A DNA stretch of 64,000 bases from Bryum argenteum. Lineage: Eukaryota > Streptophyta > Bryopsida > Bryales > Bryaceae. Each line of letters opens with the position of its first letter. The first letter of the stretch is position 1. Where the stretch lies: the NCBI GenBank assembly GCA_037043015.1, contig CM073326.1, positions 4,561,845-4,625,844 on the forward strand, in the 5' to 3' direction. The position numbers were made by a program, and so were the translations under genes. Shown here piece after piece: positions 9,043 to 58,000 of the stretch. The notes beneath the pieces were generated by a model that saw nothing but the letters and a program-made list of their open reading frames with translations, made no database searches and was not told where the DNA came from.

Positions 9043-12000
9043 ATGCGCTCTGGGGTAGCTGCAGTGCAGAACACTTTGACTCCACCTGCGCAAAATGTGT
9101 TGCGCCTCGCCATTCACAATGCGCAACAACGAGGGCATACGCATGTGCAACCTTTGCATGTGGCGTTGGCGTTGCTGTCTCAAGGAGGTCCTTTACTACG
9201 GCGAGCATGTGCCGACATACACACCCAGGCCGCGCATGGGTTGCAACAATGTCATGCCCTGGATTTATGTTTCAACGTTGCACTCGATCGGCTACCGCAG
9301 TCCTCCTCTTCTTCCAACGCGCATCCTATATCTTTGTCGAATGCGTTGGTTGCTGCTTTGAAGCGTGCCCAAGCCCATCAAAAACGAGGATGTCCCGAGC
9401 AACAACAACCTCCTTTTGTGGCGGTGAAGGTGGAAATAGAACAGCTTATCATCTCCATATTGGAGGACCCGAGTGTGAGTCGGGTCATGAAGGAAGCGGG
9501 ATTCGTGAGTCAGGATGTTAAAACCAACCTTGAGAATGCAATAAGCTTGTCAAGCTCGCTGCAACAGAGCAGAGACAACCATCACAGTCCAAGGTCGCTT
9601 CCTGCAGGTAAATTGCCTATTTCACATTCTGAAACATATTACACTTCAAATTTCTGTTTTACTCACTCTGAAGTTCTCCAAGGTTGAGTCAAGGTTCATG
9701 AATTCTTTCACCGTTTATGAGTGAACGATTTGCAATGAGTGAACCATTTGAGACCACCTCTTGCAGATCTGGAGCCTCCTCTTGCTGGTTGCGTGGGGGT
9801 AAGACCGTCAATGCTTCCATCACCATGGAGTGTGCGAGCCAGTACCGAAGATTCGAAGGTGCTTTGCTGCCGTGAGTGTATGTCACAGTTGAATGCAGAG
9901 TGTGATCAACTTCGTGCACAAGAAGGTGCTCAAGTCGAAGCCGTCGGTTCTCCATTACCTTCGTGGCTTCAGAAGGAGAAGGACAAATCCGAGCAGGTAA
10001 CATATTCTTGTAAATTACTGCGGCTTTTCTTACTGTTAAATCAATCACAAGCTGATGTGTTCATTTTTTGGTGGTGCATGTCGGATGATCATCAATTAAT
10101 GTAATGTATCTGTGTCCAGGAAAAGTGCCAGTCGTTGGCACGAAAAGTTCAAGAAATACAACAAAGATGGCAAGTTTTCTGTAGAACTTCACACTCAACT
10201 AGAGACATGGCACATGGGTTGCTGCCTCTTCACAATAGAAGGGAAAGCAACATATCCACCAACACGGAGGCTTTTGGTAATAATCCTTCCACTATTATGA
10301 TCTGTTGCTCTCCTTGGAGTCCTCCCTCAATGGTATGCATCAGTATTGTTGTGTAGCTCCTTTCAGTATATTTTGTGGCATGTTTGCCGCTTGGAATTTT
10401 TTCTAAAATCTGCTGCATTCTTATGTTCAGGATTCATGGGAGCGAAGTCGACTTCTCCGCTAAGTCCAGCAATGAATCGTCCACACTGGACATGCTCCTT
10501 GCCAACAATCCCATTAACTGCCATCTCTGAAGGTTTTAGAGCTGTCTACAGCGACGCCATTGGCAGCAAACCGCAAGGGTTGGAGAACATGGCCAGCTTA
10601 ATGTCAGAGGACTCGAGCAAGAGGATTGATGCTTCGCAGTTGGGATTGTCGAAACCTCTAGAGCAAGGCCGTCCACAGCCAAGTCCAAGCCCCTTCGCAA
10701 GACTACATGGCAATGTGTCGAAGTCTCCGTCAAGCGGCTGCCCACTTCAAAGCAGTCCTTTCTCGAGCCCAAGCCCGTTATCAAATAGTCCTCTCTCGAG
10801 CCCAAGCCCGTTATCAAGACTACATGGCAGCGGGCCCAATTCTCCGACAAGTGCCTGCCCTCTCCAAAGTAGTCCTCTCTCGAGCCCAAGCCCGTTATCA
10901 AGACTACATGGCAGCGGGCCCAAGTCTCCGACAAGTGGCTGCCCACTCCAAAGTAGTCCTCTTTCGAGCCCGAGCCCCTTATTAAGATTACATGGCAACG
11001 AGCCTAAGCCTCCGACAAGTGGCTGCCCTCTTCAGAGCAGTCCTCTTTCGAACCCACTTTCTGCAATGAAGACCTCGAAGCCCCTTATGAACCCGTCTCC
11101 TCTAATGGCGAAGTCACCGTCTCCTCTAATGGCGAAGTCACCGTCTCCTTTAATGGCGAAGTCACCGTCTCCTCTAATGGCGAAGTCGCCGTCGCCTCTG
11201 ATGGCGAAATCGCCGTCTCCTCTGATGGCAAAGTCGCCTTCTCCTCTGATGGCAAAGTCGCCGTCTCCTCTGATGGCGAAATCGCCTCTTGCCCAATTGC
11301 AACATCCTTCCAAAGGCATGAGCCCGTTATCTGAGCCATCCTTGAAGAAGGACAATAAGCCTCTTGCTTTGTTTGATCAAAAAGCTGCGGAGAGGCTGAA
11401 ACATGTATTCAGGGGAGTGTTGGACAGGGTCTCATGGCAGAGCAATGCGGTTTCCGAAATCACAACTGCTCTAGTGAACACCCAATCTGGAATGAGCAAA
11501 TCTCAGGGGGTACTGGCCGCAAGGGCAGATACATGGCTACTTCTCTTGGGACCAGATCAAGTAGGAAAGCGCCTCATAGCCGAAGCACTCGCTGATTTGA
11601 TAGGCAAGGGAAAGAAGCCCGTTTGTTTCGGATTAATCCAAGACGGGACCTTCTCAAGATGGGGTCGAAAAGATGAGCAAAAACTACCGAGAGGCCCGTC
11701 CACATTGGATTCTCTCGCTGAAACTTTCCGAGCAAATCCTTTCGCTGTTTTGTTGCTCGAGGACATCGACCAAGCTGACACCGTCCTTCGGACAAAGTTA
11801 GCAAATGCCATGGAGACTGGGAAGTTCATGGATTCCAGTGCTCGCCAAGTGAACATGGGGAACGCCATCATTCTTATGACTTCAAAACTAGGAACGCAGG
11901 ATACCAAAGACAGTCCATTTCAAGAGGAGAAAGTATCTTCCTTGCCCGGTGCACGAATGAAGCTAACCCTCGACCTCCCAGAGAACAAAGAAGTCATCCT

Positions 12001-12598
12001 TCGAGGCGATCACAACGTAACCGTCGTGAAAGATACAACATCGGATGCAGAAGCACTCGATAGAAGCACTGTAAATTTCATGTCTCCTTTGAAAAGGAAA
12101 CCAGCCGGAGAGTTACTAATGCAAGAGAAGCGCCCGAAGCTTGCAGTCTCCTTGGACTTGAACCTCTCAGCGAAGGAGAACGAAGAGAGTGGCTGCAGCA
12201 GCCAGGAATCCAAAGCATCCGAATCAGATCCAGTGCTGACAGCCGCGAAACAGGTTCTATCTTCCCGTTTCCTCAATTTAGTAGACAGTGTTGTGGTGTT
12301 CGAGCCTTTCAACATGATGGAGCTGGCAAACTGGATACTACTCCAGTTGTCAAATGCATGCTCAGGCCTCAATGTCGAGGTCGACTTCCAGCTCTTGGAA
12401 CACATGATTAGCGCTTTATGGCAAACCCCGGGTGGTAGGCTAGCATTTGAAACCTGGATCCAGAAGAACCTCAAGTCAAAGTTAAATGCATTCGCGAATG
12501 ATGTAGTAGGAGATAGAGTTCTACGCTTTGTTTACCAAGACACTTTCTCTAGTTCGCCTTCCGAGCTTCCTCTTCAAATTGAACTGGGCAACAGATGA
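9043..12598 (+). CDS. SMXL/D53-type Clp-ATPase-like transcriptional repressor
   Basis: Four coding exons: 9043-9607, 9767-9996, 10120-10276 and 10431-12598, GT-AG introns, 1039 residues, usual for SMAX1-LIKE proteins. The family acts in the nucleus as repressors degraded after karrikin or strigolactone perception through KAI2/D14 and the F-box protein MAX2. Residues 1-170 form the double Clp-N domain, starting MRSGVAAVQ like SMXL N termini. A Cys pair sits at 223 and 226, followed by LPSWLQ. The degenerate P-loop is GPDQVGKR at 691-698 and the Walker-B-like LLLEDID surrounds E761-D762. The EAR motif LDLNL is at 892-896, a docking site for TOPLESS co-repressors. The position of the family degron RGKT reads RGPS (738-741). 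Residues ~400-604 are Pro/Ser-rich tandem repeats. The start is the first ATG of the Clp-N frame. The subclade is unresolved. Confidence 0.9.
10680..11065 (+). repeat. 84-bp coding tandem repeats in the SMXL-like gene
   Basis: About four imperfect copies of a 28-residue unit containing [20 protein letters not shown] lie in exon 4, all in frame. Differences between copies are mostly single substitutions, plus one extra [11 protein letters not shown] insertion. The segment lies between the N-terminal part and the ATPase-like part, where SMXL proteins are normally poorly conserved. Confidence 0.85.
11096..11287 (+). repeat. 24-bp coding minisatellite (SPLMAKSP x8)
   Basis: Eight consecutive 24-bp units encode the octapeptide SPLMAKSP with mainly third-position differences between units. 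It directly follows the 84-bp repeats and is in frame. It adds a repetitive Ser-Pro/Lys-rich linker of 64 residues before the ATPase-like domain. Confidence 0.9.
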
Positions 12599-31876: not shown

Positions 31877-33229
31877 GTTCTTACAACCTATAATTGTTAC
31901 GAAACACCTCATAGCGCAAGACATCCATGTGACATAGTCTGTAGAACTACCTCCAACATACTCTTTGTTCACAATCCTTTTTTGAGGATACCCTTTACTT
32001 TATTGTAGATATTTCATAAATATGTCATTTGAATGATAGTGATAGTTATAAGTCTAGAGCTAATTTGTTGATAGTAGTGACTCATTTACTTGTAACTATA
32101 TATGTTGATTTAATAGTGATTCATAGGAATAGGTGGTAACTTGCTATAAGCGCTCATTTTGTGCTCATCAACTTCTTCTTGTATGTTTTTGACAAATCTC
32201 GAGGACTCATAGTTTCAATAGATAAAATAGAGCATCTGATAGAATGATGACTATGCTTGACATGTTTTTAATAGAATGATGACTATGCTCGACATGTTTT
32301 TAATAGAATGATGACTATGCTCGACATGTTTTTGATAGAATGATGACTATGCTCGTCATGTTTTTCGTGCACGATTACATCCTAGAATTGTACCATTGTA
32401 TTTATTTGGCTATGAGAATCGAATTTTGGGCTTTTGAGTTGTTCTAACTACCCAAATTTTTTTTAACATGTGCCATATTTAAGGGAATTGATAGATAGTA
32501 TACAGGTGCTTGGATGATGAACTTCCATAATGTAGATACTTATCATACCCATCTCGTTTCTAAACTAAACATGCTAACAATACAAAAAGGAGGAAAAAAA
32601 AAAGGGTCCCAAAATGTTTGGCAATCAATTTTAAACCCATATCTTTAGGTGTTGAAGTCAATCACTAAGGTTGAGTGTCCTAAAAGCACCATTCTTAAGA
32701 GATCTGACCTATTTTTAGCACTAGTAAATTCAAAATAAAATTATGACCACATTCCAAATAGGTTTTCAAGAGGATTGCAAACATTTGCAACATTAAACTC
32801 GCATTTGTGAATTTGATACAAAATTCCAAAGTGCTAAGTAAGATTTGACCCAATTGCGTTATATACAAATGAAGTACATCTGTATTTCCACAATCTACAA
32901 ATGAGGTACAACGCGCATTTGGGTTCCCTGGAGCTTTTAGGTAGTTCAACCGTACTGCACATTTTCAACAGTACAGGAGCCATCGAGTAAATAAATTCAA
33001 AGAATGTCTTCCTATTTGACATCAACTTTCAGCTTCCAGGATAAGGCCTAGGGACACTGGAACAAAAACACCAAAAGTCAAACATATAATGAAAAAAAGG
33101 CCCACAAGTCAAAAATATAATAAATAAAAGCCCCATTAGTCACACATATAATGAATAAAATCTAAACGCCATAAACTAAGACAGACCAGACCAAATACTA
33201 GGGTAGAGTAAACCCAATTTACACGATGG
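31877..33229. other. 3' flank of the kinase gene and intergenic
   Basis: No further gene is supported up to the tandem array. A 32-bp tandem repeat lies at 32239-32365 and is listed separately. Confidence 0.55.
32239..32365. repeat. 32-bp tandem repeat, 4 copies
   Basis: Unit 'ATAGAATGATGACTATGCTC' plus 'GACATGTTTTTA', four near-identical head-to-tail copies about 360 bp downstream of the kinase stop codon. Confidence 0.9.
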
Positions 33230-33752
33230 TGCACACATTGAATTCCTACGTGATTGCGCGGAGAGCCCATGGGCCTCGGTAGGAGGTTGGTTCACCACCA
33301 CGCTCCACCACTAGGGCGAGGGCGTGAGCGTGGAGTTCAATCTTAGAGGCACATCGATCGGCCGAGGAACCCGCCGCAAGCGGCGTGTTCCCAAGTGTTC
33401 TCTTGCTTATTATTGTTCAAATCCTAATCAATCATCAACCATGCCTTCGCATTGCCAAAGTACAAAAGGTCTCAAGGTGTGCCTACAAATACTCCACATT
33501 CGTGTCTATTGAGTGATTTCAAACACCAACCAACTCGACTCTTCCCATCAACTCATCGGATGCATGCAAAGAAGAACACAACGAGAACCATCGTGCAATA
33601 CGGAGACAAATGTGTTATATCAAAAAGTCGCATTTTATTCTTATAATGATTGTTGCGTGGAGGGAATCGATTCTTCCTCCAAAACATGCCATGAGCTTTG
33701 TGTGATACATGATTCTATACGCGTGCTAGTTCACACCGCCCGGACGCTATCT

Positions 33753-33899
33753 CTATTGCATTGCGGATATGATGTTGTTGTACACCTCGTACATGTATAC
33801 GCCTATCGCAATCAACGAGAGCATGGAAATGCCAAACACCACGAGGTTCTTCACGCCATCGTGGTTGTTCTTCATTGCAACCCGGCGACTCGTCGCCAT
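33753..33899 (-). CDS. Tandem mini-gene copy 1: 48-aa single-pass membrane protein (intact)
   Basis: I do not recognise the product. On the minus strand an ATG in good plant context (CCACTCCATGGCG) opens 48 codons ending in TAG. The protein starts MATSRRVAMKNNHDGVKNL, has a hydrophobic segment at about residues 20-39 (VVFGISMLSLIAIGVYMY) and ends YEVYNNIISAMQ. The short basic N terminus followed by one membrane span resembles small organelle-membrane subunits in shape only. A TATATAA lies at 34106-34112 and an AATAAA at 33634-33639, so the unit has the parts of a complete small gene. The frame is identical in copies 5 and 6. Confidence 0.55.
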   Translation of the reverse strand: MATSRRVAMKNNHDGVKNLVVFGISMLSLIAIGVYMYEVYNNIISAMQ

Positions 33900-34750
33900 G
33901 GAGTGGTTGCCTTTTAGCTCTCTCCCTTCTCTCCGCAAGCGGCCTTCACGCAACTTCCAAAATCGCCACTACGGCCAACCCTCGTCTCAATCCGGATGCC
34001 TCCTCGACCAAGAAGATGAAGGCGGGAGAGCTCTCGAAATTGCAATGCGCAAATAAAAGCTTGAGGATGGCAAGAGAAGTGATTCTTGGCATGGGCACAA
34101 CACGCTTATATAGGATATGCCCACCCCCAAGGCAATGGTTCGCCCTCGAGGCGATGGCGGGAGGGATGTTGTTGGACTCGGGCTCGGGTTGTTGCACACA
34201 TTGGAATCCTACGTGGTTGCGCGGAGAGCCCATGGGCCTCGGTAGGAGGTTGGTTCACCACCACGCTCCACCACTAGGGCGCGGCGTGAGCGTGGAGTTC
34301 AATCTTAGAGGCACATCGATCGGCCGAGGAACCCGCCGCAAGCGGCGTGTTCCCAAGTGTTCTCTTGCTTATTATTGTTCAAATCCTAATCAATCATCAA
34401 CCATGCCTTCGCATTGCCAAAGTACAAAAGGTCTCAAGGTGTGCCTACAAATACTCCACATTCGTGTCTATTGAGTGATTTCAAACACCAACCAACTCGA
34501 CTCTTCCCATCAACTCATCGGATGCATGCAAAGAAGAACACAACGAGAACCATCGTGCAATACGGAGACAAATGTGTTATATCAAAAAGTCGCATTTTAT
34601 TCTTATAATGATTGTTGCGTGGAGGGAATCGATTCTTCCTCCAAAACATGCCATGAGCTTTGTGTGATACATGATTCTATACGCGTGCTAGTTCACACCG
34701 CCCGGACGCTATCTCTATTGCATTGCGGATATGATGTTGTTGTACACCTC

Positions 34751-34861
34751 TTACATGTATACGCCTATCGCAATCAACGAGAGCATGGAAATGCCAAACA
34801 CCACGAGGTTCTTCACGCCATCGTGGTTGTTCTTCATTGCAACCCGGCGACTCGTCGCCAT
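34751..34861 (-). pseudogene. Tandem mini-gene copy 2: premature stop
   Basis: Same start and first 36 codons as copy 1, then GAG-to-TAA type change (TACGAG read as TAAGAG) gives a stop at 34751-34753. The 36-residue product keeps most of the membrane segment but loses the 12-residue C-terminal tail. The same mutation occurs in copy 4. Promoter-side motifs and the polyadenylation signal are preserved, so it may still be transcribed. Confidence 0.5.
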
Positions 34862-35641
34862 GGAGTGGTTGCCTTTTAGCTCTCTCCTTCTGCTGCAAGC
34901 GGCCTTCACGCAACTTCCAAAAATCGCTTCACTACGGCCAACCCTCGTCTCAATCCGGATGCCTCCCTCGACCAAGAAGATGAAGGCGGGAGAGCTCTCT
35001 GAAATTGCAATGCGCAAATAAAAGCTTGAGGATGGCAAGAGAAGTGATTCTTGGCATGGGCACAACACGCTTATATAGGATATGCCCACCCCCAAGGCAA
35101 TGGTTCGCCCTCGAGGCGATGGCGGGAGGGATGTTGTTGGACTCGGGCTCGGGTTGTTGCACACATTGGAATCCCTACGTGGTTGCGCGGAGAGCCCATG
35201 GGCCTCGGTAGGAGGTTGGTTCACCACCACGCTCCACCACTAGGGCGGGCGTGAGCGTGGAGTTCAATCTTAGAGGCACATCGATCGGCCGAGGAACCCG
35301 CCGCAAGCGGCGTGTTCCCAAGTGTTCTCTTGCTTATTATTGTTCAAATCCTAATCAATCATCAACCATGCCTTCGCATTGCCAAAGTACAAAAGGTCTC
35401 AAGGTGTGCCTACAAATACTCCACATTCGTGTCTATTGAGTGATTTCAAACACCAACCAACTCGACTCTTCCCATCAACTCATCGGATGCATGCAAAGAA
35501 GAACACAACGAGAACCATCGTGCAATACGGAGACAAATGTGTTATATCAAAAAGTCGCATTTTATTCTTATAATGATTGTTGCGTGGAGGGAATCGATTC
35601 TTCCTCCAAAACATGCCATGAGCTTTGTGTGATACATGATT

Positions 35642-35824
35642 CTATACGCGTGCTAGTTCACACCGCCCGGACGCTATCTCTATTGCATTGCGGATATGAT
35701 GTTGTTGTACACCTCGTACATGTATACGCCTATCGCAATCAACGAGCATGGAAATGCCAAACACCACGAGGTTCTTCACGCCATCGTGGTTGTTCTTCAT
35801 TGCAACCCGGCGACTCGCCGCCAT
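35642..35824 (-). pseudogene. Tandem mini-gene copy 3: 2-bp deletion, shifted frame
   Basis: The frame opens with MAASRR (Thr3 to Ala) and matches the intact copies up to ...VVFGISML. There a 2-bp loss (CGAGAGCATGG to CGAGCATGG on the plus strand, near 35744) shifts the frame. The shifted product would be 60 residues with a broken membrane segment and a charged tail. It is most likely non-functional. Confidence 0.55.
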
Positions 35825-36683
35825 GGAGTGGTTGCCTTTTTTAGCTCTCTCCCTTCTCTGCCGCAAGCGGCCTTCACGCAACTTCCAAAATCGCCGCACT
35901 ACGCCAACGCTCGTCTCAATCCGGATGCCTCCTCGACCAAGAAGATGAAGGCGGGAGAGCTCTCGAAATTGCAATGCGCAAATAAAAGCTTGAGGATGGC
36001 AAGAGAAGTGATTCTTGGCATGGGCACAACACGCTTATATAGGATATGCCCACCCCCAAGGCAATGGTTCGCCCTCGAGGCGATGGCGGGAGGGATGTTG
36101 TTGGACTCGGGCTCGGGTTGTTGCACACATTGGAATCCTACGTGGTTGCGCGGAGAGCCCATGGGCCTCGGTAGGAGGTTGGTTCACCACCACGCTCCAC
36201 CACTAGGGCGAGGAGGGCGTGAGCGTGGAGTTCAATCTTAGAGGCACATCGATCGGCCGAGGAACCCGCCGCAAGCGGCGTGTTCCCAAGTGTTCTCTTG
36301 CTTATTATTGTTCAAATCCTAATCAATCATCAACCATGCCTTCGCATTGCCAAAGTACAAAAGGTCTCAAGGTGTGCCTACAAATACTCCACATTCGTGT
36401 CTATTGAGTGATTTCAAACACCAACCAACTCGACTCTTCCCATCAACTCATCGGATGCATGCAAAGAAGAACACAACGAGAACCATCGTGCAATACGGAG
36501 ACAAATGTGTTATATCAAAAAGTCGCATTTTATTCTTATAATGATTGTTGCGTGGAGGGAATCGATTCTTCCTCCAAAACATGCCATGAGCTTTGTGTGA
36601 TACATGATTCTATACGCGTGCTAGTTCACACCGCCCGGACGCTATCTCTATTGCATTGCGGATATGATGTTGTTGTACACCTC

Positions 36684-36794
36684 TTACATGTATACGCCTA
36701 TCGCAATCAACGAGAGCATGGAAATGCCAAACACCACGAGGTTCTTCACGCCATCGTGGTTGTTCTTCATTGCAACCCGGCGACTCGTCGCCAT
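36684..36794 (-). pseudogene. Tandem mini-gene copy 4: premature stop shared with copy 2
   Basis: Identical in coding sequence to copy 2, including the TAA after residue 36. Its leader also resembles copy 2 ('CGCTTCACTACGGCC' on the plus strand), so copies 2 and 4 probably share a duplication or conversion history. Confidence 0.5.
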
Positions 36795-37612
36795 GGAGTG
36801 GTTGCCTTTTAGCTCTCTCCCTTCTCTGCTGCAAGCGGCCTTCACGCAACTTCCAAAAATCGCTTCACTACGGCCAACGCTCGTCTCAATCCGGATGCCT
36901 CCCTCGACCAAGAAGATGAAGGCGGGAGAGCTCTCTGAAATTGCAATGCGCAAATAAAAGCTTGAGGATGGCAAGAGAAGTGATTCTTGGCATGGGCACA
37001 ACACGCTTATATAGGATATGCCCACCCCCAAGGCAATGGTTCGCCCTCGAGGCGATGGCGGGAGGGATGTTGTTGGACTCGGGCTCGGGTTGTTGCACAC
37101 ATTGGAATCCTACGTGGTTGCGCGGAGAGCCCATGGGCCTCGGTAGGAGGTTGGTTCACCACCACGCTCCACCAGGGCGCGGCGTGAGCGTGGAGTTCAA
37201 TCTTAGAGGCACATCGATCGGCCGAGGAACCCGCCGCAAGCGGCGTGTTCCCAAGTGTTCTCTTGCTTATTATTGTTCAAATCCTAATCAATCATCAACC
37301 ATGCCTTCGCATTGCCAAAGTACAAAAGGTCTCAAGGTGTGCCTACAAATACTCCACATTCGTGTCTATTGAGTGATTTCAAACACCAACCAACTCGACT
37401 CTTCCCATCAACTCATCGGATGCATGCAAAGAAGAACACAACAAGAACCATCGTGCAATACGGAGACAAATGTGTTATATCAAAAAGTCGCATTTTATTC
37501 TTATAATGATTGTTGCGTGGAGGGAATCGATTCTTCCTCCAAAACATGCCATGAGCTTTGTGTGATACATGATTCTATACGCGTGCTAGTTCACACCGCC
37601 CGGACGCTATCT

Positions 37613-37759
37613 CTATTGCATTGCGGATATGATGTTGTTGTACACCTCGTACATGTATACGCCTATCGCAATCAACGAGAGCATGGAAATGCCAAACACC
37701 ACGAGGTTCTTCACGCCATCGTGGTTGTTCTTCATTGCAACCCGGCGACTCGTCGCCAT
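37613..37759 (-). CDS. Tandem mini-gene copy 5: 48-aa single-pass membrane protein (intact)
   Basis: Complete 48-codon frame, identical in protein sequence to copies 1 and 6. TATATAA lies at 37970-37976, about 210 nt upstream of the ATG. The unit shares a G-to-A difference with copy 6 in the region past the polyadenylation signal (near 37443 and 38408), marking these two as close relatives. Confidence 0.55.
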   Translation of the reverse strand: MATSRRVAMKNNHDGVKNLVVFGISMLSLIAIGVYMYEVYNNIISAMQ

Positions 37760-38458
37760 GGAGTGGTTGCCTTTTAGCTCTCTCCCTTCTCTGCTGCAAG
37801 CGGCCTTCACGCAACTTCCAAAATCGCTTCACTACGGCCAACCTCGTCTCAATCCGGATGCCTCCCTCGACCAAGAAGATGAAGGCGGGAGAGCTCTCTG
37901 AAATTGCAATGCGCAAATAAAAGCTTGAGGATGGCAAGAGAAGTGATTCTTGGCATGGGCACAACACGCTTATATAGGATATGCCCACCCCCAAGGCAAT
38001 GGTTCGCCCTCGAGGCGATGGCGGGAGGGATGTTGTTGGACTCGGGCTCGGGTTGTTGCACACATTGGAATCCTACGTGGTTGCGCGGAGAGCCCATGGG
38101 CCTCGGTAGGAGGTTGGTTCACCACCACGCTCCACCACTAGGCGGCGTGGCGTGGTGGAGTTCAATCTTAGAGGCACATCGATCGGCCGAGGAACCCGCC
38201 GCAAGCGGCGTGTTCCCAAGTGTTCTCTTGCTTATTATTGTTCAAATCCTAATCAATCATCAACCATGCCTTCGCATTGCCAAAGTACAAAAGGTCTCAA
38301 GGTGTGCCTACAAATACTCCACATTCGTGTCTATTGAGTGATTTCAAACACCAACCAACTCGACTCTTCCCATCAACTCATCGGATGCATGCAAAGAAGA
38401 ACACAACAAGAACCATCGTGCAATACGGAGACAAATGTGTTATATCAAAAAGTCGCAT

Positions 38459-38464
38459 TTTATT
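38459..38464 (-). terminator. AATAAA polyadenylation signal of mini-gene copy 6 (same in every unit)
   Basis: AATAAA on the minus strand about 115 nt after the stop codon. Equivalent signals occur in each unit, for example 33634-33639 in copy 1. Confidence 0.5.
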
Positions 38465-38577
38465 CTTATAATGATTGTTGCGTGGAGGGAATCGATTCTT
38501 CCTCCAAAACATGCCATGAGCTTTGTGTGATACATGATTCTATACGCGTGCTAGTTCACACCGCCCGGACGCTATCT

Positions 38578-38724
38578 CTATTGCATTGCGGATATGATGT
38601 TGTTGTACACCTCGTACATGTATACGCCTATCGCAATCAACGAGAGCATGGAAATGCCAAACACCACGAGGTTCTTCACGCCATCGTGGTTGTTCTTCAT
38701 TGCAACCCGGCGACTCGTCGCCAT
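38578..38724 (-). CDS. Tandem mini-gene copy 6: 48-aa single-pass membrane protein (intact)
   Basis: Complete 48-codon frame with the same protein as copies 1 and 5. It is the first gene of the array in the direction of transcription. TATATAA at 38937-38943 is 213 nt upstream of the ATG and AATAAA at 38459-38464 is about 115 nt downstream of the stop. Its promoter abuts the partial seventh unit. Confidence 0.55.
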   Translation of the reverse strand: MATSRRVAMKNNHDGVKNLVVFGISMLSLIAIGVYMYEVYNNIISAMQ

Positions 38725-38936
38725 GGAGTGGTTGCCTTTTAGCTCTCTCCCTTCTCTGCTGCAAGCGGCCTTCACGCAACTTCCAAAAATCGCTTCACTA
38801 CGGCCAACCCTCGTCTCAATCCGGATGCCTCCCTCGACCAAGAAGATGAAGGCGGGAGAGCTCTCTGAAATTGCAATGCGCAAATAAAAGCTTGAGGATG
38901 GCAAGAGAAGTGATTCTTGGCATGGGCACAACACGC

Positions 38937-38943
38937 TTATATA
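38937..38943 (-). promoter_or_regulatory. TATA box of mini-gene copy 6 (same in every unit)
   Basis: TATATAAG on the minus strand (within CCTATATAAGCG), present in all six full units at the same spacing from the ATG (about 205-215 nt). It implies a leader of roughly 180 nt. Confidence 0.6.
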
Positions 38944-39058
38944 GGATATGCCCACCCCCAAGGCAATGGTTCGCCCTCGAGGCGATGGCGGGAGGGATGT
39001 TGTTGGACTCGGGCTCGGGTTGTTGCACACATTGGAATCCTACGTGGTTGCGCGGAGA

Positions 39059-39070
39059 GCCCATGGGCCT
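39059..39070 (-). promoter_or_regulatory. Paired site II (TGGGCY) motif upstream of mini-gene copy 6
   Basis: GCCCATGGGCCT holds TGGGCC on one strand and TGGGCT on the other, about 115 bp upstream of the TATA box. It is repeated in every unit (for example 34226-34238). Site II elements are known from plant promoters of ribosomal and mitochondrial respiratory-chain genes and bind TCP factors. A CCAAT also lies nearby on the minus strand. Confidence 0.45.
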
Positions 39071-39446
39071 CGGTAGGAGGTTGGTTCACCACCACGCTCC
39101 ACCACTAGGGCGAGGGCGTGAGCGTGGAGTTCAATCTTAGAGGCACATCGATCGGCCGAGGAACCCGCCGCAAGCGGCGTGTTCCCAAGTGTTCTCTTGC
39201 TTATTATTGTTCAAATCCTAATCAATCATCAACCATGCCTTCGCATTGCCAAAGTACAAAAGGTCTCAAGGTGTGCCTACAAATACTCCACATTCGTGTC
39301 TATTGAGTGATTTCAAACACCAACCAACTCGACTCTTCCCATCAACTCATCGGATGCATGCAAAGAAGAACACAACGAGAACCATCGTGCAATACGGAGA
39401 CAAATGTGTTATATCAAAAAGTCGCATTTTATTCTTACAATGATTG

Positions 39447-40145
39447 GGATGGATTATAGGCTCAATATGGAGATATGTGTTTCTAATGAATGTTGTGTTT
39501 TATTCCTAAATTATGCGTTGGTGGATGTTGATTCTCTCTCTTTATTATGCTTGAGCTTTGTTTGACGATGTGGTGCATTTGAGTCATTCATTACTTTTTC
39601 TGTTAGTTTTCACTAGGTGTGATCCGATTTTTATGACTAAATAGGATCGAATGTAACAAAGTTTCTTAGATTGGTGTCAAAAGATTAGTTTTTGAATGAT
39701 ATGTAGAGAATTGTTGAAGAACACCTCGATCGACTCAACGCATGCCATCTCAGCCGGAATGGCTTCGTATAAAGTTGTTGAGGTTCTAAAATCGAGCTCT
39801 TGAAGAGCGTTGACGAGGTTCGGTTATGTGATCTTGGTCCTTAAGAGCATGTCCACCGTGTGCGGTAGGTCTCTTAGGTTGCGTCTAATCCTTCCAGACG
39901 CGGGTTAGCTGGTCATTGAGAATGCCACCCTGAGGCCTAAAGACAAGCCATCTGGGGGTTATTAGCCAGTCACATTTCTGCCACTGTCCAATCTCATTTC
40001 TTCCAAGTGGGTATCACTTTGAACCATTTGCGACTAATGAAATTTCTTGTCACATGACACTTCCACATTGGTTGAAGGGATTGCTAAAATAAGAGTAAAT
40101 GCACATGATAACTTGAAATTATGGGGTGCTAGAATGAAGAGGACT
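39447..40145. other. Intergenic, nothing recognisable
   Basis: Unique-looking sequence between the tandem array and the first TTAA element. No gene is supported. Confidence 0.55.
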
Positions 40146-40742
40146 TTAACCCTTAAATGCCCATGGGGTCTAAAACGGGCAGCCCAAAATTGGATCACAA
40201 CATCTTTTGGACTTTGGCATCAAGAGTAGTGCACTTTTTGAACTTGTTCACTACGAATGAACCAATCAATGATGAGCTTGCAACCTCCTACAAGGTTATG
40301 TATAACCCCAACCTACCTACCACAATTCTTTCAAAGCACAAATCACTTATACAAATTGTGATTTGAATTGTAAAATTCCACTATATGAATGCATCATAAG
40401 ACGGTGACTAGTTTGACATCAAAATATAAGTGAAAAGTTGATTACAGTGAGAGCTACAGAGAAGATTATGTTGGAATCAAGCCCCTCGGGCTTGCTTGGG
40501 CGTTTAACCCTTAAAAGTCCCTTGGGGATAGTATGTACGTTGTCGTATAATTAGGATTTGCTACCAACAAGAAACTCTAAACTGGAATTGTAATAGCTCA
40601 CTAGAACTGCATGGATTCAAATGTGAACTTCTTTTTTGAACTCAAACCCATTAAAGGTGTGCATTCACTCCAAATACAACCAAATACACCGTATTCTACT
40701 GGTCGCCACGGCACGCTCAGACCTTTAGGGGTTAAGGGTTAA
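40146..40742. mobile_element. TTAA element (outer) split by a nested TTAA element
   Basis: The left end TTAACCCTTAAATGCCC starts at 40146. The body matches the element at 25195. Its right terminus would read GGGCGTTTAAGGGTTAA, but the internal TTAA of that terminus is split. A second element occupies 40504-40735 and the remaining GGGTTAA follows at 40736-40742. Confidence 0.75.
40504..40735. mobile_element. 232-bp TTAA element nested in the previous one
   Basis: Left TTAACCCTTAAAAGTCCC, right GACCTTTAGGGGTTAA. It sits exactly in the TTAA of the host element's end, with TTAA on both sides. No coding capacity. Confidence 0.75.
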
Positions 40743-40964
40743 CCCTCTCGACTGGGTTACATGGATATTGTCCGGATTTAAGGGTTACACTCCATAATTC
40801 AAATCTACATGACACCATCATGACCTCAGGTGCTTAAACAATCTTTTGACCTCGAAAGACATGTGTTGGCTAGAAAGTTGTTGTTGATGCATGCACCACA
40901 TCAACCATTCAAAGGATCAAAGTGTGTCAACTAAGACCAGAACCATACAAATTATTTCATTTTT

Positions 40965-55574: not shown

Positions 55575-57416
55575 CTAAGTATACAAAGAATGCTCTAACA
55601 AGGGTTGCAAAGTGCTCTGCGAGAATTTCCTAGCAACTAAGAAGCAAACATGGCCAGGCTGGCCATTATACTCACACCCACGATCATTGCGCAAGCGATC
55701 GAGGAACTCATCAGTGATATCCTTGTGCACAAACGTAGCAGGGTGGGAGCCGCCTCTCGACCAGTCGGTATAAGTCAATCCCCTTCCAGCCAGCTTCTCC
55801 CCATTCGTAATACTCAACATGGTTTGAATGTAGTGCTCGTCGATATAACAATGCGGCCTGCAAAAGTCTCTGAATTTGGGGTAGTATTTCACATCTGATA
55901 CCACCTCAACTGCGAGGTCCCGTTGAATCTCGAACCATTGCCCTCCTTTTCGAAACTGCTGAATGGTAATCTCTGGTAACATGCCTGGATTGTACCTCCC
56001 TCGCCCGTATGGTGACGGATCATCGAATGCTGAAATAAAGCTCTTGTTTGAGTTGACTATGTAGTCGTAGAAGAAGGTGAAGTTGAAGAGGGGGATACAG
56101 CTCTCGGACAGGAGGATGAACCTCTCGTTGGCGAAGTCGAGTAGTGCGTTTGCTAGGAGACGACGCTCTGCGTCCACAATTGATACCTCGCCCCACACCA
56201 CTGGCTGCAACATAAATCGTATCAGTATGATGTGAATCCGAACTTGAGTTAGATCCTTTATAACAAGGTGAGATTGGTGCAAATTTCACATGTATCGTAT
56301 CGGGGTTATATGAATCTACACTTGAGCTGAATAGATCATAAGAAGGTATGAAAGGTGCAATACTCCGCTGGCTGCAATGCGAATCGTATCAGTTTTATAT
56401 GAATCTACACTTGAGCTGAAACTTTAATAAGAAGGTGAGAATGGTGCAGAATCCTACAGGAATCATCCATGAGAAGGTGAGAATGGTGCAGAGTTCTCAC
56501 TGGCTGCTACACGAATAAAATCAGTATTATGTGAACCTACACTTGAGCTAATCGTTCGTAAGAATGTGAGAATGATGCAGACTTCTCCTGGCTGCACCAC
56601 GAGTCGTATCAGTATCATATGAATCTACATCGAGCTAAATCCTTCGCAAGAAAGTGAGTATGCTGCAGATTTCTACATGAACCGTACCAGTATTAATATT
56701 TAGACTCGGGGCTAGATCCGTAATAAGGTGGGGAATGGTGCCGATTTCTACATGAATCTACACTCGGGCTATATCCTTAATAAGAAGGTGAGAATGGTGC
56801 AGCATTGCAAATCTTAATCGGTCGATTTCTGGTTGTTAGCATATTCAGTGATAAACCTTCGGAATTGCAAACCCTAACGAGGCTTAAGCATGATAGGGAT
56901 GAGCACCTGGCTGGGGACGTGACGGCCGTAGAAGACAGAGCCGGGGTAAAACTCCGGCCGGTGATTCGGGTGCGAGTGCACATAAACAGAGTAAAGCCCT
57001 TCGTTGCCTTGAAAGAAAGCTTCCCAGACAGAAGCAAGAGGCAAGGGACCAGCAGCGAGAAACATAAACGCGATCTTCTTTTTGCCCTCGAACGGCTTAA
57101 CTGACCTCTGCGGCACCATGGAAGATCGCCACAGAAGCTCCTCGTCTTGCATCCCATGCTGCACGGGGAACATGGACTCGTACACAACGGACGGAACGGG
57201 CGCGTAGCTGCTGAAGTAGCTGGCCATGTCAGCGCCTGCAGGAAAAAGCGACGATCCGACCAAGCCTATCACCACGCCCGCGCCTAAACAGATAAAGAAG
57301 ACGAAGAAGTTCCGCAGCTTCGACGGCCATTGCTTCGATTTTGACGACCGAGGTTGCGATTCTCCTCCCTCCTCTATGTCCCGGATCAGCGGCCGTTTGT
57401 TGCTCTCCCCTTGCAT
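55575..57416 (-). CDS. BC10-type GT14 family glycosyltransferase (DUF266/Branch)
   Basis: Two coding exons on the minus strand: 57416-56907 and 56204-55575, joined in phase 0 after residue 170 (PSQ|PVVWGE); 379 residues, usual for the short BC10-like group. These Golgi type II membrane proteins are related to Core-2/I-branching beta-1,6-N-acetylglucosaminyltransferases; rice BRITTLE CULM10 affects cell-wall and arabinogalactan composition. The cytosolic N terminus is followed by a membrane anchor at about 37-58. Then come KKIAFMFLAAGPLPLASVWE, YVHSHP, DAERRLLANALLDFANERF, LLSESCIPLFNF, GRGRYN, WFEIQRDLAVEVV, YIDEHYIQTM and DWSRGGSHPATF, all family blocks in order. The start is the first ATG of the frame (CAGGATGCAAGG). 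The acceptor substrate cannot be inferred. The 702-bp intron consists of degenerate tandem repeats. Confidence 0.93.
56208..56812. repeat. Degenerate 75-90-bp tandem repeats filling the GT14 intron
   Basis: About seven or eight diverged units, each containing variants of 'ATCGTATCAGTATGATGTGA', 'CTACACTTGAGCT' and 'AAGAAGGTGAGAATGGTGCA'. Several units also contain 'CTGGCTGCA' (near 56369, 56501, 56589), which equals the plus-strand form of the real 3' splice site at 56201-56208. The repeats therefore carry extra copies of an acceptor-like motif. Confidence 0.8.
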
Positions 57417-58000
57417 CCTGGCACATCCCTAGGGCTCCAGGCCCTCAAACTCATGGATCGATCTTCCGGCAATCATCCGATCTAAATTTCGGGTGTCTCC
57501 AGGGTTAGGTGTCGCTAAAGTCCGACTTGACTGGATCTGATGAGACGAAAATGTAAAAGAAACGATGGAAATCTCTCTCAAGCTTGAGCGAGCTCCGGAA
57601 TGGAAGCGATACAGCTCTGTTCGGGAAATGCTGCGCGTGATCTTTTGGGTCTAAGAGCAATGTAGCCAGCATAGTGGCTTTTTACCGATTTTTGGATCGA
57701 ATTCAGCCATTCCTGCATCGATTTGAGTGCGGAAAACAGCAAATGGAAGGTGCGTAGGTGATCTCATGGCTCTGCAGGTCAAATGCGGGTGGACTATGCG
57801 CGCGCTGCTCGTCACTCACCCGCGTCCTGGTCGCTTTGGTCGATATTGCGATGCGAGCATTGAGCTCAGTGCATCTTAGCCGTTCGTTAATCTGGAGCAC
57901 GAGAGTCGTCGGATCTGCCTGACCCACGCTCTATATCTTTATTAGTTCGAATACCGTACCACCGTAGCAGGTTCGGTCATAAATCTACCTCTACAATAAA
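57417..58000 (-). promoter_or_regulatory. Leader and promoter region of the GT14 gene
   Basis: GC-richer sequence directly upstream of the ATG at 57416, changing to AT-rich DNA at about 57950. No coding frame is convincing. It probably contains the 5' UTR and proximal promoter; individual elements cannot be fixed. Confidence 0.4.

Follow-up and report, generated by a model that had tools for sequence, protein, structure and literature searches.

Both orphan small genes and tandem arrays are found commonly in plants. Membrane microproteins often act as small partners of larger membrane proteins, and RAMP4/SERP1, a short protein with TSRR near its N-terminus and a C-terminal helix, is treated here as a lead. 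In this study, we analyzed a 64-kb stretch of the genome of the moss Bryum argenteum (the window; bases 4561845-4625844 of contig C6, in an assembly of 258.8 Mb and 25 contigs), in which positions 33230-39446 are occupied by a tandem array of units of about 965 bp with candidate genes on the minus strand. The most likely explanation, to which we give a probability of about 0.7, is that the array unit is a single-exon orphan gene encoding a membrane microprotein of 48 residues and one helix, a gene that has four dispersed relatives of full or nearly full length detected elsewhere in this genome, has been amplified in tandem, and is undergoing birth-and-death. The gene family is probably real, and the array itself is probably a tandem amplification that has half decayed, not a set of six working genes.

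Organization of the tandem array

An earlier note, made from the letters of the window alone, had described six direct repeats at this place, each with a TATA box, a 48-codon frame, and a polyadenylation motif on the minus strand. Alignment within the window agreed with this layout and added a partial seventh unit. The six full repeats lie head-to-tail, with plus-strand starts at 33230, 34193, 35158, 36122, 37094, and 38057 (spacing of 963-972 bp), and the partial unit starts at 39024. The array was not listed by Tandem Repeats Finder, which was run with a longest period of 500. Genome searches returned only one such array, of 6.4 units (counts being lower bounds). Its features, with the method of identification in parentheses, are as follows.

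33230..39446, minus strand: tandem array, six ~965-bp units and a 423-bp partial unit (unit alignment)
33753..33899, minus strand: copy 1, intact 48-codon frame and stop (frame reading)
34751..34861, minus strand: copy 2, TAC to TAA at codon 37, 36 codons left (frame reading and alignment)
35680..35824, minus strand: copy 3, frame-homologous stretch with a 2-bp deletion, ATG at 35824 (frame reading and alignment)
36684..36794, minus strand: copy 4, TAA at codon 37 as in copy 2, 36 codons left (frame reading and alignment)
37613..37759, minus strand: copy 5, intact 48-codon frame and stop (frame reading)
38578..38724, minus strand: copy 6, intact 48-codon frame and stop (frame reading)
39024..39446, minus strand: partial seventh unit, spacer and 3' gene end without the coding frame (unit alignment)
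34106..34112, minus strand: TATA box TATATAA of copy 1 (motif)
33634..33639, minus strand: AATAAA of copy 1 (motif)
33513..33917, plus strand: antisense open stretch of 134 codons, at the same place in units 2-6

The frames of copies 1, 5, and 6 are intact, as had been noted, and encode an identical protein. The further claim that a complete small gene had been amplified holds for these three copies and fails for the other three, whose frames are broken. All six copies carry TATATAA 213-219 bases upstream of the ATG, and all six carry AATAAA, at +260 from the A of the ATG in five copies and at +258 in copy 3. The context of the ATG, which had been called good, proved to be only fair, with T at -3 and G at +4 in all six copies.

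Any two full units are separated by 3-17 substitutions over 957-967 aligned bases and by 4-14 gap columns, so that the six consecutive kilobase units are about 98-99% identical. In the six-unit alignment, 46 of 975 columns were variable, and 37 of these fell into two short blocks, namely 17 in columns 83-104 and 20 in columns 687-818, the latter directly upstream of the frame; many of the variants in both blocks are small insertions or deletions (indels). Variants at columns 712, 783, and 818 are common to copies 1 and 3, a variant at column 761 to copies 3 and 4, and a variant at column 358 to copies 5 and 6. The stop shared by copies 2 and 4 and the three columns shared by copies 1 and 3 suggest that duplication or conversion acted on two units at a time, and the sharing between copies 3 and 4 and between copies 5 and 6 points to mixed exchange.

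The antisense open stretch was considered as a gene and rejected, its sole methionine in copy 1 being residue 18 and the comparison of reading frames given below favoring the sense frame. An RNA gene was likewise rejected: no Rfam match at the gathering score was found within 32000-40500, and no tRNA gene was found within the 64-kb window.

Predicted protein

The 48-residue array protein has one hydrophobic span, in line with the earlier description, and its 19-residue Kyte-Doolittle mean reaches a maximum of 2.15 from residue 19. AlphaFold modeled a single helix over residues 2-47 with a predicted local distance difference test score (pLDDT) of 93.6 and a predicted template modeling score (pTM) of 0.55, which is a weak statement because the input was a single sequence. 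With fewer than 100 residues and one hydrophobic helix, the predicted product would qualify as a single-pass membrane microprotein. With the charged residues R5, R6, K10, and K17 in its N-terminal part and a short tail at the C-terminus, the protein is likely, under the positive-inside rule, to have a cytosolic N-terminus and a C-terminal anchor.

No convincing relative was found in Pfam, NCBIfam, or PDB. The rows PF10724 (E 0.055, two of five members), PF09813 (E 2.2, one of five), NF006897 (E 0.023, one of five), and NF050019 (E 0.06, one of five), as well as four PDB rows at E 1.2-3.9, were judged to be chance matches. The Pfam model of RAMP4/SERP1 was not matched; the array protein itself had no Pfam family, and the five members together had only the two weak ones. 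A prokaryotic or viral origin was also rejected, with none of 19 viral and 367 prokaryote pattern matches confirmed as a relative. The negatives from Pfam, NCBIfam, and PDB are consistent with an undescribed family, possibly restricted to its lineage, the plant genome searched being that of the moss itself, and none of the titles and abstract openings listed in a literature search described the 48-residue protein or the array.

Dispersed relatives in the genome

A whole-genome search with the array protein (E up to 10) gave 14 rows, of which seven belong to the array (copy 3 appearing in two pieces) and seven lie elsewhere, as listed below with their amino-acid identities.

C11:1644395: C11 relative, 90%
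C4:23757977: C4 relative, 81%
C5:881691: C5 relative, 56-57%
C8:8094561: C8b relative, 47-49%
C11:5431172: fragment, 45%
C8:11508049: C8a fragment, degraded into a T-rich run, 37%
C11:5432644: fragment, 56% over 25 residues

The four main relatives occupy C11:1644395-1644538, C4:23757977-23758123, C5:881694-881819, and C8:8094552-8094692 (C8b). When the C5, C8b, and C4 proteins served as queries, the rows fell at places already listed, apart from one extra weak row (C6:3469613, E 0.19). The ATG of the array is kept in C11, C4, and C8b, where the base at -3 is G in C11 and C4 and A in C8b. The last residue and the TAG stop are common to the array, C11, C4, and C5; C8b stops one codon sooner, and C4 has an in-frame 3-bp insertion that gives one extra codon. 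Signals outside the frame were recovered as well. TATATAA occurs at -180 in C4, at -218 in the degraded C8a, and at -474 in C11, where it lies beyond a (TCT)n insertion of about 260 bases (C11:1.6447-1.6449 Mb); C5 has TATACAA at -199, and C8b has no aligned TATA counterpart. AATAAA is located at +262 in C11 and +258 in C4, and AATGAA is found in C5 and C8b. Among the dispersed copies, homology was detected only between about -600 and about +300 relative to the ATG.

At the C8a locus (C8:11.507-11.509 Mb), a spacer, a gene remnant, a spacer, and a further 3' stretch follow in sequence, the long pieces being about 67-77% identical. This locus is a relic of the tandem layout of the array, the only other instance found, and fits a tandem duplication that preceded the near-identical copies seen now, with homogenization coming later.

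Selection on the coding stretch

Coding identity exceeded flank identity in four of seven comparisons: between the array and C11 (135/144 vs 173/239, p 1e-7), the array and C4 (130/144 vs 461/579, p 0.0025), C4 and C11 (132/144 vs 174/225, p 3e-4), and the array and C8b (101/141 vs 124/237, p 2e-4). Codon tests omitted the inserted codon of C4 and whatever is absent from C5 and C8b, and excluded the fragments at C8:11508049, C11:5431172, and C11:5432644. The ratio of nonsynonymous to synonymous substitution rates (dN/dS, omega) was 0.29 for the array protein with C11 and C4 (p 0.014 vs omega = 1), 0.35 with C5 added (p 0.003), and 0.49 with C8b also added (p 0.012), the three data sets being overlapping and the model with omega = 1 being fitted on a kappa grid rather than optimized. 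This dN/dS comparison, which the earlier note had proposed and which was made here on paralogues of the same genome, rejects a value of 1 in all three data sets. With coding conservation above that of the flanks in four comparisons and dN/dS = 1 rejected, the gene is probably real. As in a protein-coding family, the frame is kept in the relatives with omega below 1, C5 being a weak member. The ratio of nonsynonymous to synonymous differences (pN/pS) was lowest in the sense frame (0.29) among the six frames; one antisense frame gave 0.33, which we read as a shadow of the sense frame.

In a three-way alignment of the array, C11, and C4, array-specific changes numbered 5 among the 147 coding columns and 23 among the 205 flank columns (p 0.009), and C11-specific changes 3 and 19, respectively (p 0.006). 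The C11 and C4 branches together carry 4 amino-acid and 7 silent changes, compared with 5 and 0 on the array branch (binomial p 0.003; the counts omit one site at which all three sequences differ). The array-specific residues are A2, T3, D14, L27, and E38, and since C8b has the C11/C4 residue at all five places, these amino-acid changes belong to the side of the array. Constraint at the protein level therefore has good support in C11 and C4; in the case of the array, only the low overall rate speaks for it.

Several results weigh against a gene under selection at all of these loci. The coding stretch of C5 was no better conserved than its flanks in all three of its comparisons (p 0.13, 0.66, and 0.90), and C5 is without the first ATG, its possible start being only at an internal methionine. 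A simpler pairwise simulation of substitutions gave weaker results, with values below 0.05 for just two of the ten pairs, C11-C4 (0.0006) and C11-C5 (0.024). The codon-position skew over 17 variable sites was not significant (p 0.11), nor was the distribution of C4-specific changes (8 coding vs 22 flank, p 0.085) or the conservation of a helical face (p 0.12), which leaves a specific packing partner without support. Neutral change would likewise give the five amino-acid and no silent changes of the array branch, and since all five of these coding changes alter amino acids, a function of the array copies is at most putative. Within the array, 4 of 147 frame columns are variable (a stop, a 2-base deletion, and one amino-acid change), compared with 5 of the 674 columns that belong neither to the frame nor to the two variable blocks; the array frame therefore looks unprotected and relaxed. 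The excess of amino-acid changes and the three broken frames likewise suggest that selection on the array may be relaxed.

Genomic surroundings

The array is flanked on both sides by high-copy dispersed repeats, and searches with the flanks found no second copy of the unique part. Adjoining the array at 32664-32954 is a repeat of about 290 bp, for which 39 of the 40 scored matches (467 candidates) are at other places, with 90-95% identity; a search of it for long terminal inverted repeats found none. On the other side, another dispersed repeat begins at 40141-40793, with 25 of 49 rows matching about 40146-40200 at 84-100% and with inverted arms AACCCTTAAA at 40141-40158 and 40776-40793.

Elsewhere in the window, a 765-codon open frame on the plus strand (10301-12598) matches Pfam AAA_2 (E 2.4e-10) and contains internal tandem repeats of 24, 33, 84, and 117 bases. 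Two open stretches on the minus strand (55575-57428) match Core-2/I-Branching (PF02485) and are probably exons of one glycosyltransferase gene. In the wider genome, clusters of partial PF00504 matches were found at C5:8.16-8.41 Mb, C5:14.73-14.76 Mb, and C2:25.06-25.09 Mb, covering about 31-161 of the profile in frames of mostly about 220-290 codons; these presumably resemble the amplified ELIP-type genes of desiccation-tolerant plants. Since large clusters of such light-harvesting-like, possibly ELIP, genes are present in the same genome, stress tolerance is a conceivable setting for the microprotein. One light-harvesting complex II protein of this genome has its highest scores, a single multi-domain chain (9vfj_2) aside, against the PDB chains 7xqp and 8htu of Physcomitrium patens among the best 60 of 231 matches, which makes a bryophyte source plausible, and the roughly eleven large contigs that the searches touched would suit the chromosome set of a moss.

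Interpretation and alternative explanations

The near identity of the direct repeats and the breakage of half of the frames would also suit a unit of satellite or other non-coding tandem DNA whose frame arose by chance, and other frames are open in places, including the 134-codon antisense stretch in each unit. However, satellite DNA forms long arrays, usually in many places and without conserved coding function, whereas a single array was returned here (a lower bound) and its start, stop, and amino acids are conserved by dispersed relatives, with omega below 1 and with coding stretches slower than flanks in four of the seven comparisons. The preference of the earlier note for a small gene over a satellite is thereby upheld, the relatives sharing the TATA and poly(A) motifs as well, and we regard the satellite explanation as highly improbable. 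Only slightly better placed, and still quite improbable, is the proposal that a small non-autonomous mobile element carries the gene as cargo or includes it as a part, so that short dispersed copies with their own promoter and 3' end would be accounted for. The limited extent of homology around the ATG agrees with it, and GATGG flanks both array ends (33225-33229 and 39448-39452), possibly as a target duplication and possibly by chance; nevertheless, the family occupies at least about 8 places in 259 Mb, whereas the elements adjoining the array match tens of scored places. An assembly artefact, by collapse or by indel errors in GC-rich stretches, might account for part of the copy number and of the broken frames, as the concentration of 37 of 46 variable columns in two short, indel-rich blocks could suggest. 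We consider this improbable, although a shade less so, given that variants are shared between copies (the stop of 2 and 4, three columns of 1 and 3, and one each of 5 and 6 and of 3 and 4), as a real history of duplication and conversion gives.

The alternative that deserves the most weight concerns the present role of the array within the same gene family: C11 and C4 would be the working genes, and the array a young neutral amplification that is losing function. Two of the three broken frames owe their breakage to a common stop, the array branch has only amino-acid changes compared with the mainly silent ones of C11 and C4, and the frame varies more than the rest of the unit apart from the two variable blocks, all of which speak for decay. 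Nevertheless, array-branch changes are still rarer in the coding stretch than in the flank, and an identical intact protein is kept by three copies. We therefore hold this view tentatively, at a little short of even chances. The opposite emphasis, that a moss-lineage microprotein family selected at its dispersed genes was freshly amplified as a complete sub-kilobase unit to raise dose, seems to us unlikely.

Under the preferred explanation of a tandemly amplified small gene undergoing birth-and-death, unequal crossing-over between out-of-register copies would have multiplied the unit of gene plus spacer and maintained the similarity of the copies, some of which mutation breaks. The positively charged N-terminal 18 residues would stay cytosolic, the helix near the C-terminus would anchor the protein in a membrane of the secretory system, and the protein may assist or regulate, as a small partner, some larger membrane protein. 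The extra copies may raise the dose or be neutral passengers.

Comparison with known systems

Genes so small are often missed by annotation, and here internal paralogues provide coding evidence without RNA. Since orphan small genes and tandem arrays are both frequent in plants, the array is of moderate interest; it is less usual for an array to consist of whole gene units of 48 codons and for paralogues to support their coding nature. Multiplication and decay of an entire gene of less than a kilobase are visible in the array, which, if transcribed, would add an orphan membrane protein family to a plant lineage together with a natural copy-number system.

The characterized membrane microproteins are mostly animal regulators, and no convincing sequence relative of the array protein was found in Pfam, NCBIfam, or PDB. 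It resembles the class (reviewed in PMC10199267) in having fewer than 100 residues, one hydrophobic helix, and a single small frame. RAMP4/SERP1 is absent from the Pfam and PDB rows for the array protein at E up to 10, and the faint resemblance consists of the size class and the C-terminal membrane helix. The array is also like tandem plant genes under birth-and-death in its direct gene repeats, its homogenized copies, and the broken ones among them, and it differs from these in having a unit of less than 1 kb that codes for only 48 residues.

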